A stretch of 64,000 bases of DNA from Leptolyngbya sp. SIO1E4 (lineage in GTDB: Bacteria; Cyanobacteriota; Cyanobacteriia; Phormidesmidales; Phormidesmidaceae), in the NCBI GenBank assembly GCA_010672825.2, contig JAAHFU020000002.1, positions 260,001-324,000 of the forward strand, in the 5' to 3' direction. The notes under the pieces were generated by a model. That model was not told the origin of the DNA. It was given only the letters and a program-made list of their open reading frames with translations, and did no database searches. Shown here in pieces: positions 60,893 through 64,000 of the stretch. Within the stretch, counting starts at the first letter, position 1. Each line of letters starts with the position of its first letter. The translations under genes and the position numbers were made by a program.

Positions 60893-61966
60893 TCATCCAA
60901 ACCCTTTTCCCCGATTGCTTTGTTTCCACACTAGCCACTCCCCTTGCTGCCCGCCTGCAGCGAGCCATTTTCCGTTGGGGCTCCAGCTGAGAACGGAAAA
61001 GCCCTGGGAAGCCCCTTCTAGAATTTGAGTGGCTCGTTGAGCTTTTTGCCAGAGGCAAATCCAGCCGTCTTCGGCAGCGGAGGCGAGGAGCGTGCTGCCG
61101 GGTTGAAAAGCGATCGCGTTCACCCGTTGCTCATGTAAGTCGAGCACCTCGGCATTCCAGCCGTCGTTAGCATCGCTTTGCTTGCGCCAGACAATAACGT
61201 CGGTGCCGCTAGCGGTCGCCAGGAGAGGAGCCTGTCCTACCGTGACGTCAGACCAGGCAAGCTGGCGGACTTTACCCGGAAAGCCGCTCATCTGCCAGGG
61301 ATCAGCACTGTTAAAGGGCCACACCAGCAGAGTTCGATCAAGATTGCCGGAGGCTAGGTATTGACCATCGGGAGAGAGGGCGATCGCCACACTGGCCGCG
61401 GCAATTTCGCGCACCTCCGGATCCGCATCCCAGTTGTCACGGCACCAGATTTTGACACCTTGGTGGCCGCTAACGGCCAAATGGTTGCCCTGAGGATGCC
61501 AGGCCATATCTAAGACCGACGAGTTTTCGAACTGTAAGGTGGTGACAATGTCTTCGGCCTCAGTATCCCAGACTTGGGCATAGCGACCGAGGCTGAAGGC
61601 GAGTTCGTTACGAGTAGGGCTCCAGGTGAGGCTGTCGAGCCAGGTGCGGGGGTGGGGGAGACGGGTGGGGGAGTGGATGGGGAGAGAGGCAGAGGGATGA
61701 ATGGGCCAGATGAGAAGCTGACCGGATTGGCCTCCAGCGGCGAGGTGATGACCGTCGGAGGAGAAGGCCAGGCAGTCGATGGATTGGCCGTTGGCTTCCT
61801 GGAGACTAATTTCTGTCTGGGTTTCAGGATTGATGAGGATAATTTCGCCAGCCGCGGAAGCGATCGCCAGGGTTAGCTGACTCGGGCACCAGGCGATCGC
61901 CGTCACATAGTCGTTCAGATGACCTCGCTGGCAAACATCCAGAAGCGTTTTGGTTACACCAGGCAC
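60893..61966 (-). CDS. WD40-repeat beta-propeller protein
   Basis: Cytoplasmic protein of 357 residues with about seven WD-like repeats (VTAIAWCPSQLTLAIASAAGEIILI, CLAFSSDGHHLAAGGQSGQLLIW, VNAIAFQPGSTLLASAAEDGWICLW and others). A low-complexity Ser/Pro/His insertion lies near residue 95-110. It overlaps the COG0523 GTPase gene by 13 bp on the same strand, so the two are cotranscribed. Inference: it may be a docking partner for the GTPase, or only share its regulation. Start ATG 61966. Confidence 0.88.
   Translation of the reverse strand: MPGVTKTLLDVCQRGHLNDYVTAIAWCPSQLTLAIASAAGEIILINPETQTEISLQEANGQSIDCLAFSSDGHHLAAGGQSGQLLIWPIHPSASLPIHSPTRLPHPRTWLDSLTWSPTRNELAFSLGRYAQVWDTEAEDIVTTLQFENSSVLDMAWHPQGNHLAVSGHQGVKIWCRDNWDADPEVREIAAASVAIALSPDGQYLASGNLDRTLLVWPFNSADPWQMSGFPGKVRQLAWSDVTVGQAPLLATASGTDVIVWRKQSDANDGWNAEVLDLHEQRVNAIAFQPGSTLLASAAEDGWICLWQKAQRATQILEGASQGFSVLSWSPNGKWLAAGGQQGEWLVWKQSNRGKGFG
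61648..61682 (+). other. G-quadruplex-type G-tract cluster
   Basis: Plus strand shows five runs of three to five G separated by 1 to 8 bases in 35 bp, on the strand opposite to the WD40 coding sequence. It encodes the low-complexity Ser/Pro insertion of that protein. A stable G4 is possible. Confidence 0.5.
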
Positions 61967-62922
61967 GCGCGAAAGTCCTCCCGCAGTTGAGCTTCGTTCA
62001 GGTTGCGACCAATAAAGACTAGCTCATTCTTACGAGATTCATTCGATTTCCAGGGGCGATCAGCGCGGCCATCAAACAGCATGTGTACGCCCTGAAACAC
62101 AAATCGCTGGTCTTCCCCGTCAATGTTGAGAATGCCTTTCATCCGAAAGATGTCTGGTCCTTGGGTTTGCAGCAGCTCACTTAACCAAGCATTAAGCTTT
62201 TGTCCATCTAGCGCACCGGCTTCTACCAAGGCAATGGAGCCTACAGTTTCGTCATGTTCGTGGGCATCTTCGGCTAAAAAGTTAGGGTCAACTTTCAGGG
62301 CACGGTTCAGGTCAAAAGCGCTGACTCCGAGAATGGCCTCCATTTCAATCGCGGCATCGCGGGTGCGGTATACCTTTGCCATCGCGTTCATGGCGTGAAT
62401 TCGGGCTTCTAGCGCTTCTAGGTCGGCCTCACTCACTAAATCGGTCTTGTTCAGCAGAATCACATCGGCAAAGGCAATCTGCTCTTGGGCTTCATCGGCA
62501 TCCCAATGGTCATGGATGTGCTTAACATCCACCACTGTTACGACCGCATCCAGGTCAAGTCGGCCTTGCATGTCTTCATCCACGAAGAAAGTTTGGATGA
62601 CGGGGGCTGGGTCGGCCAGTCCCGTGGTTTCAATCACCAGATGGTCAAACTTGTCGCGCCGCTTCATCAGGTTGCCGATGATGCGAATCAGGTCGCCTCG
62701 CACCGTACAGCAGATGCAGCCGTTATTCATTTCAAAGATTTCTTCATCGGCATCAATCACCAGCTGATTATCGATGCCGACTTCCCCAAACTCATTGACA
62801 ATTACTGCCACTTTCTTACCGTGCTCATGGGTAAGGATGCGGTTCAGTAGAGTCGTTTTGCCTGCCCCCAGATAACCTGTAAGGACGGTTACTGGTACTG
62901 TATTGATCGCTGTGTTGACCAT
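61954..62922 (-). CDS. COG0523-family GTPase (CobW-like metal chaperone)
   Basis: P-loop GTPase of 322 residues that delivers metal, usually zinc, to client enzymes. GYLGAGKTTLLN (16-27) is Walker A, GCICC (68-72) is the metal-binding CxCC motif, and LLNKTDLV the guanine motif. His-rich HIHDHWD and EDAHEHDE add metal ligands. A Zur/Fur-like box is 21 bp upstream of the ATG (62922). The gene overlaps the WD40 gene. Other CobW-type roles (cobalt or nitrile hydratase) are less likely given the box. Confidence 0.93.
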   Translation of the reverse strand: MVNTAINTVPVTVLTGYLGAGKTTLLNRILTHEHGKKVAVIVNEFGEVGIDNQLVIDADEEIFEMNNGCICCTVRGDLIRIIGNLMKRRDKFDHLVIETTGLADPAPVIQTFFVDEDMQGRLDLDAVVTVVDVKHIHDHWDADEAQEQIAFADVILLNKTDLVSEADLEALEARIHAMNAMAKVYRTRDAAIEMEAILGVSAFDLNRALKVDPNFLAEDAHEHDETVGSIALVEAGALDGQKLNAWLSELLQTQGPDIFRMKGILNIDGEDQRFVFQGVHMLFDGRADRPWKSNESRKNELVFIGRNLNEAQLREDFRACLV

Positions 62923-62955: not shown

Positions 62956-63235
62956 CCCAGTCTAATGCAAACAAGACCGGCCAAGGCGAAGCGACTTAGC
63001 CTGGGTTTGATCAGGTTAAGTATCTCGATGCTGTAAAGGATTGCGTTTGCAGGCCCTAAGCGCTGTATGGATGCTATGGACTGAGATTTAGGTTGAAAAG
63101 AGTTGGCAGGTCGCTGGTGATTTTTGGCTGTTGAGATAATATGCGGAAACCTGCTTGCGATCAGACAAATCAGGATGGATATGCAGATACTTTCGGCGTA
63201 TCTACCCTATTCAGGACAATATACGGAAACTATCT

Positions 63236-63255
63236 GTCTAACAACATTGTTAGAC
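63236..63255 (+). other. 20-bp palindrome carrying a GTTAGAC recombination core
   Basis: GTCTAACAA-CA-TTGTTAGAC, perfect 9-bp arms. The right arm contains GTTAGAC, the core found at the left junction of an integron cassette; the left arm equals its complement. It may be a collapsed attC or an attachment-site remnant. Confidence 0.5.
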
Positions 63256-63927
63256 CGCTTAAGGTTATCTGTAAGGTAGTAGTTTATACGCTATCAGTGA
63301 GACGCTCAAGTCATGAGGAAAGTAGAAGTTGTCCCGCATGACCCAAAATGGCAGGAAGCGTTCGAGTTTGAATCGAAACAAGTCACTGCTGCTCTGGGCA
63401 AGAATGTTGTTGCTGCACACCACATTGGCAGCACAGCCATTCTCCGCATACACGCTAAGCCAATTATCGATCTGTTAGTTGAGGTTAAAGACGTTCTTAA
63501 AATTGATGAACAGAATACATTAATGGAGCTATTGGGTTACGAAGTAATGGGTGAGTTTGGAATCTCTGGTCGCCGATTCTTCCGTAAGGACAATAAAGAA
63601 GGCATTAGAACGCATCACATCCACATCTTCACCGTTGGTTCGGATCAAGTAAAACGTCACCTAGCATTTCGAGATTACATGATTGCTCATCCTGAAGATG
63701 CACAGAGCTACAGCGAGTTGAAGCAAAGATTAGCAAGAGAATATCCCACAAATATTGATGGATATATGGATGGAAAAGATGAATTCATTAGAGAAATAGA
63801 TAAGAAGGCGGCACAATGGAAAGCATTACAAACATCTGCAGCCAGCGATCTAACAAGTTGATGAAGCGGACAGTTGAGAGATATAGGTTAGGTTGCCAAA
63901 GTTATCTACTGCCGCTTATCTTGGTCG
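63250..63927 (+). mobile_element. Probable integron gene cassette (grpB-attC)
   Basis: A roughly 678-bp unit starting TTAGAC after the GTTAGAC core and ending with the attC R' G. It holds one gene (GrpB family) whose stop codon lies inside the attC. The attC's own first box TCTAAC pairs perfectly with the cassette's leading (G)TTAGA. No integrase gene is in the window, so this is a solitary cassette or the edge of an attC cluster. Confidence 0.65.
63313..63861 (+). CDS. GrpB-family (UPF0157) protein
   Basis: Protein of 182 residues in the nucleotidyltransferase-like GrpB family. Diagnostic are VEVVPHDPKWQEAFEFE, HHIGSTAILRIHAKPIIDLLVEV and the HIHIFTVGSDQVKRHLAFRDYM block. No enzymatic role is established for the family. 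The gene is AT-rich compared with its surroundings, which supports recent acquisition. Its stop codon lies within the attC site, as usual in integron cassettes. ATG 63313. Confidence 0.9.
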   Translation: MRKVEVVPHDPKWQEAFEFESKQVTAALGKNVVAAHHIGSTAILRIHAKPIIDLLVEVKDVLKIDEQNTLMELLGYEVMGEFGISGRRFFRKDNKEGIRTHHIHIFTVGSDQVKRHLAFRDYMIAHPEDAQSYSELKQRLAREYPTNIDGYMDGKDEFIREIDKKAAQWKALQTSAASDLTS

Positions 63928-63932
63928 TTAGC
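63849..63932 (+). other. attC recombination site of an integron cassette
   Basis: R'' TCTAAC (63849-63854) pairs with R' GTTAG(C) (63927-63932). L'' AAGCGG (63864-63869) pairs with L' CCGCTT (63912-63917), and CAGT (63871-63874) with ACTG (63908-63911), leaving A63870 unpaired as the typical extrahelical base. Between these a 33-nt variable segment remains. The unpaired spacer between R and L boxes is 9 nt on each side. This is the defining architecture of attC; length 84 nt is within the usual range. Confidence 0.8.
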
Positions 63933-64000
63933 TGGCTTACTCCACAGAGTTGCCATGCAGACTGATCGCCCCTGCTAAAAAGTAGCTTGCTGAGCAACGA

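Follow-up and report, generated by a model that had tools for sequence, protein, structure and literature searches.

The window analysed here is a stretch of 64,000 nucleotides (C2:260001-324000) from an assembly of 8.2 Mb in 12 contigs that is estimated to be 99.99% complete. Near its right end, a gene of the GrpB family lies between an attI-like element and a site with the layout of an integron attC (Table 1). A cobW-type GTPase gene is the neighbor on the left, and a hydrolase gene is the other chromosomal flank of the attI and its cassettes. The GrpB open reading frame has a GC content of 42.3%, compared to 51.5% for the window, and only 1 of 252 equal-sized windows is equally low. A first-pass annotation of this DNA had described an AT-rich GrpB gene ending at an attC, and this is what we find. 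It had also taken the cassette to be solitary, but the array has two cassettes, the second of which ends at an attC beyond the window (attC2, in the same orientation as attC1 and 852 nt from it), and there are many more attCs elsewhere in the genome. Only the first 73 nt of cassette 2 lie inside the window, so the description as solitary could not have been corrected from the window itself.

By family, the two genes of cassette 2 are a classical toxin-antitoxin pair. Other MazE-PIN-like DNA in the family is 72-81% identical, and in G421 and G418 an attC is found directly behind it. Between attC1 and the antitoxin gene we noted a 57-nt inverted repeat (L009 9973-10029), 84% self-complementary, that may be a terminator shielding the toxin-antitoxin genes. 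PADLOC found no defence family among the cassette proteins, and sites resembling a cassette promoter Pc were no more frequent than in shuffled sequences.

Table 1. Features of the locus and related elements. Plain numbers are window positions; other coordinates carry their contig (C) or locus (L) label.
Feature	Position	Strand	Description
cobW-type GTPase gene	61954-62922	-	left neighbor, at the place expected for intI; Pfam cobW and CobW_C
Orphan attI (by homology and position)	63130-63255	+	homologous to elements adjoining divergent intI; similarity stops at insertion point
attI repeats (three)	63139, 63179, 63219		ATATGCGGAAAC-like; 40-nt spacing
attI core	63236-63255		inverted boxes GTCTAACAACATTGTTAGAC; insertion point G63249|TTA
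Cassette 1	63250-63927	+	678 nt between two G|TT junctions (G63249, G63927)
GrpB-family gene	63313-63861	+	182 codons; stop codon inside attC1; Pfam PF04229, E 2.2e-54
attC1 (by boxes in sequence, covariance model and fold)	63848-63933	+	86 nt; R'', L'', L' and R' boxes
attC1 R''	63848-63854		ATCTAAC
attC1 L''	63860-63874		GAT-G-AAGCGG-A-CAGT; extrahelical G63863 and A63870
attC1 L'	63908-63920		ACTGCCGCTTATC; variable center between L'' and L'
attC1 R'	63927-63933		GTTAGCT
Cassette 2	63928-64000, on to C2:324866	+	939 nt
MazE/AbrB-like antitoxin and PIN-domain genes	L009 10157-10402, 10365-10778		in cassette 2; PF04014, PF01850
attC2	C2:324786-324872		end of cassette 2, 786 nt past window end; 44.4 bits, E 7.1e-8 (model excludes attC2)
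Glyoxalase-like cassette copies	L009 17407-17922; L319 4081-4596; L089 1006-1523	-; +; 	
attI copies with no intI in the stretch examined	L327 7291-7414; L329 9256-9379; L330 9407-9525; L331 11819-11928		in G410, G388, G397 and G408

Identity of the attC sites

In attC1 the R''/R' and L''/L' boxes are complementary and L'' contains extrahelical bases, so the matched R and L boxes, the extrahelical A and the CAGT/ACTG pairing that had been listed in the first-pass annotation are each present. The unpaired spacers are 5 nt on the left and 6 nt on the right, and the R' box departs from the GTTRRRY pattern. IntI recombines an attC through its bottom strand, which folds up when single-stranded, and folding the bottom strand of attC1 yields the expected cruciform half with two extrahelical bases, which is moderately stable (z -2.7).

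We trained a covariance model on 14 attCs from outside the genome under study: class 1 integrons supplied five, and the other nine came from cyanobacterial relatives that carry intI. The class 1 reference sites (attI1 and attCs) were taken from NZ_CP120882 and NZ_ON081626, and the class 1 attCs in the spacer comparison were those of aadA, catB, and aac(6') from two plasmids. With this model attC1 scores 55.6 bits (E 1.1e-10 in 515 kb, and E 1.8e-9 when its own genome is searched), within the range of 46-58 bits that class 1 attCs reach in the same search. A separate hairpin scanner gave attC1 a score of 21.5, while 400 kb of simulated sequence contained nothing scoring 14 or more. The score of attC1 is far beyond chance. 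Judged from its sequence, attC1 is a genuine attC, and the first-pass description of it as canonical, which was to be checked with an attC covariance model, is upheld by the score, the class 1-like spacers and the fold, with a second attC nearby. An Rfam scan returned no relevant family, and a simple degenerate box pattern did not discriminate, with 22 matches genome-wide compared to 34 for a reversed control pattern.

The same model finds approximately 36 attC sites in the genome at E<1, 27 at E<0.01 and 25 at E<0.001; overall there are some 30 or more, at about 13 loci and in both orientations. They lie directly behind ORF stops, at a median distance of 21 nt compared to 226 nt for random positions. 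Matches were obtained in 55 of the 59 relatives searched, which indicates that attCs occur widely and at scattered positions among filamentous cyanobacteria, and 16 Bacillota control genomes (~78 Mb) gave zero matches at E<=1. An alignment of 74 sites has standard pairs in 91.5% of its paired cells and two-sided changes at 12 of 17 pairs. Covariation scores 0.403, compared to 0.118 for shuffled and 0.02-0.11 for slid controls; all these figures lean towards the attC structure because the alignment was fitted to it. As an imperfect inverted repeat immediately after a gene, with a fold of only moderate stability, attC1 could also be an ordinary terminator, a REP or a MITE-like element. However, the class 1-like boxes with their 5- and 6-nt spacers, the covariation, the model score and the Bacillota genomes without matches make this explanation of attC1 extremely improbable.

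A glyoxalase-like cassette present in three copies (C2:331.4 kb, C2:432 kb, and C3:391 kb) with 91-95% DNA identity is independent evidence of cassette movement in this genome. Their common sequence starts at the (G)TTAGGC junction, each time behind a different attC; in the L319 copy the attC has collapsed to GCCTAACGAGTAGTTAGCC.

Three other observations were made along the way. The region C2:430577-444763 (L319 2578-16764) has about 13 attCs, all on the plus strand, with nucleotidyltransferase-, GNAT-, and hydrolase-like cassettes, and neither intI nor attI was found beside this array. Near an intI in G221 (L047 11028-15150) there are six attC-like sites of a different type, 100-102 nt long and with low model scores, which are possibly a distinct attC subfamily. 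At L010 16742-19643, ~2.9 kb of strongly self-similar sequence with a period of 63 or 126 nt is probably a repeat protein gene.

The attI element and the search for an integrase

The motif GTTAGAC on the left flank of the GrpB gene, seen already in the first-pass annotation, occupies 63249-63255. When we searched with 63100-63262, the matches in other genomes spanned query positions 31-154 and ended at the G of GTTAG. The matching sequence is 70-76% identical over ~120 nt to elements that adjoin intI. A second search with the G388 element, followed by tblastn for intI, placed the element beside intI or a piece of intI at nine loci in six genomes (two each in G415, G405, and G409, and one each in G388, G396, and G215). 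In G388:C841 the order intI-attI-cassette-attC is intact, and the divergent IntI is full-length (312 aa; NCBIfam TIGR02249, 471 bits). Aligned copies have in common three GGAAA..TTTC..GATC blocks and a core TCTAATAACATTGTTAG, are conserved up to GTTA and are unrelated past that point. As described in the literature, an attI comprises an L box and an R box, of which one is degenerate; some also have accessory binding domains, and the R box past the conserved triplet varies with each cassette (PMC4792948).

In the relatives, then, the element adjoins intI, with its end at the point where cassettes are inserted, and by homology and position 63130-63255 is an attI. The three repeats are kept in other copies and are possibly accessory binding sites for IntI; Tandem Repeats Finder did not report them because they are too diverged. 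The element has a single copy in its own genome, and full-length copies with no intI nearby in the stretches examined were seen in four other cases (Table 1). We had considered GTCTAACAACATTGTTAGAC as a collapsed attC, and dropped this since its homologs adjoin intI.

This flank bears directly on how the cassettes arrived. Capture at a secondary site, an option in the first-pass annotation, would mean that an IntI acting elsewhere had put the cassette into a GTT site outside any attI. There is no intI nearby, and off-target insertion is among the published routes to integrase-less attC clusters (PMC8618304), but the flank is a recurring ~120-nt element with three repeats that stops at the insertion point and, in other genomes, stands beside intI. 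Such conservation would not be expected of a secondary site, and we consider off-target capture very unlikely.

No intI was found within the 64-kb window, as had been reported before, and the genome-wide search that the first-pass annotation proposed found no intact copy in the assembly. The only trace is a relic of 46 codons at C2:388814-388951 (-), 65 kb from the cassette in the window, which scores 40 bits and is 59% identical to the IntI of G060. An attC lies 1.6 kb from this relic (C2:390561-390646 (+); L318 4562-4647, the relic being L318 2812-2952) in the canonical divergent arrangement, and the two together are a second decayed integron. A further match to the integrase model, at C3:901139, was rejected as an ordinary tyrosine recombinase: only the C-terminal part of its 285-residue open frame is matched, and all control genomes give matches of this kind. 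An intI match at E<=1e-14 was obtained in 41 of the 59 relatives; 26 are above the family cut-off, and many are broken.

The locus in related genomes

The first-pass annotation had proposed looking for an empty site in related genomes. In three genomes of the same family but another genus (G386, G398, and G416), the hydrolase and cobW genes are adjacent, well under 100 nt apart, and no attC is present. In G421, which belongs to another family, they are also adjacent (~0.5 kb apart) and without an attC. A closer relative, G415, from another genus of the same family, has a cobW gene that is 94% identical and the same outer flanks, orphan attI and array end, with other genes in between, including an ORF of no assigned family with an attC (23.2 bits) and a broken GIY-YIG-like frame. 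Identity between the two genomes is 83% in both the 30 and the 60 nt to the left of the junction, drops to the random level (53-55%) on its right side, and is 97% over 30 nt just outside the array end. The middle junction CGTTAGCTGGCT is also common to both. The cassettes have thus changed precisely at the positions on which IntI acts.

Many cyanobacteria have GrpB homologs, which would suit an ordinary, vertically inherited locus with att-like motifs by chance. In most other cyanobacteria these homologs are not adjoined by a detectable attC (1 of 80 loci has one), and this counts against our reading of the locus. Vertical inheritance would have refuted the first-pass proposal, but relatives do not carry the gene and its flanks as such a locus: the place is empty in four of them and filled with other genes in G415, where a GrpB gene 77% identical in DNA sits at another locus with a weak attC directly behind it. 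We give vertical inheritance almost no credence. That the GrpB gene arrived as a cassette, as proposed, agrees with the empty sites in the more distant relatives and with the contents of G415 differing from G|TTA onward.

The 200-nt spacer between cobW and attI has no trace of intI and is the same in this genome and in G415, which makes it probable that their common ancestor already lacked intI there. If an intI was once here, it would have been lost before the lines parted, and the later change of cassette 1 would need an IntI from elsewhere. The first cassettes of the two genomes diverge right at the insertion point, which calls for later IntI action and suggests cassette turnover by IntI acting in trans after intI was lost. 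The orphan attI may therefore still be in use, as a satellite platform that is loaded and unloaded in trans and not as a dead relic. G415 has intI sequences at three other loci, and the attI copies with no intI nearby in G410, G388, G397, and G408 also fit this idea. However, the G415 intI sequences are interrupted or split, the genome studied here now has only the 46-codon relic, and the pattern would look no different if intI had been lost independently, or if a longer ancestral array had shed different leading cassettes in the two lines. We put the chance that the attI is still used at somewhat below even. More tentative, and on balance doubtful, is the broader proposal of a lineage-wide dispersed integron system, in which scattered orphan attI sites and small arrays would be served in trans by the IntI of other, often short-lived integrons, and capture would outlive the local intI.

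Origin of the array and comparison with known integrons

We believe that this locus is an integron that lost its intI and kept its attI and two cassettes, with a probability of roughly 0.9. The attI between the cobW and hydrolase genes would have taken up two circular cassettes, GrpB and MazE/PIN, with IntI recombining each folded single-stranded attC with attI or a neighboring attC at G|TTRRRY. We infer that intI stood beside the attI and was then lost, in preference to the attI and cassettes having moved here without it. The array would now be fixed unless an IntI from elsewhere acts on it. The attI kept at the head of the array argues for a decayed integron rather than an off-target insertion. 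Of the first-pass proposals, the attC, the arrival of the gene as a cassette and decay have stood, decay now being the best reading given the orphan attI and the lack of an intact intI; the solitary cassette and secondary-site capture have not.

Clusters of attC sites that lack an integrase are common, and their origin is usually not established. Such a cluster without an integron integrase is called a CALIN, a term of Cury et al. 2016 (as used in PMC9024848 and PMC12690207), for which we required at least two clustered attCs within 4 kb spacing and no nearby integrase. Off-target insertion, loss of intI and rearrangement have been proposed as origins (PMC8618304). At this one locus they can be told apart by the attI that was kept, by the relatives with an empty site and by G415, whose cassettes are different. 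Should orphan attI sites indeed be served in trans, the presence of an integrase would be a poor guide to cassette mobility.

Cyanobacteria are already among the integron-bearing phyla (PMC2426708, PMC8618304) and a cyanobacterial attC model exists (PMC8352920), although open-licence integron papers give them barely more than a brief mention. We found no account of a cyanobacterial attI, an orphan attI or a three-repeat attI in the open-licence literature, which is weak evidence of absence. An integron remnant without intI is of a known kind; the recurrent cyanobacterial orphan attI sites are the less expected part.

Compared to known systems, the locus has attCs and is a CALIN, with two attCs within 1 kb in the same orientation and no nearby intI, but differs from other CALINs in having a recognizable attI at its head; it is not a complete integron because intI is absent. 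It resembles sedentary chromosomal integrons in its chromosomal location, its attCs of 86-87 nt and its toxin-antitoxin cassette, as well as in the 13-attC array at C2:430.6-444.8 kb of the same genome. However, this genome has no functional intI, and its attCs are spread over ~13 loci and not in one long array. With class 1 integrons it shares the box layout, the extrahelical bases in L'' and the 5- and 6-nt spacers of attC1, and an attI core in which GTTAG comes after inverted boxes (GCCCTAAAACAAAGTTAGGC in attI1). The sequences are otherwise unrelated, and the cyanobacterial attI has three repeats with a period of ~40 nt instead of the accessory sites of attI1. Cyanobacterial integrons with an intact intI (for example G388:C841, G396:C8, and G060:C25) have the same attC family and, in G388 and G396, a homologous attI, but keep a full-length divergent intI ~100-200 nt from it.
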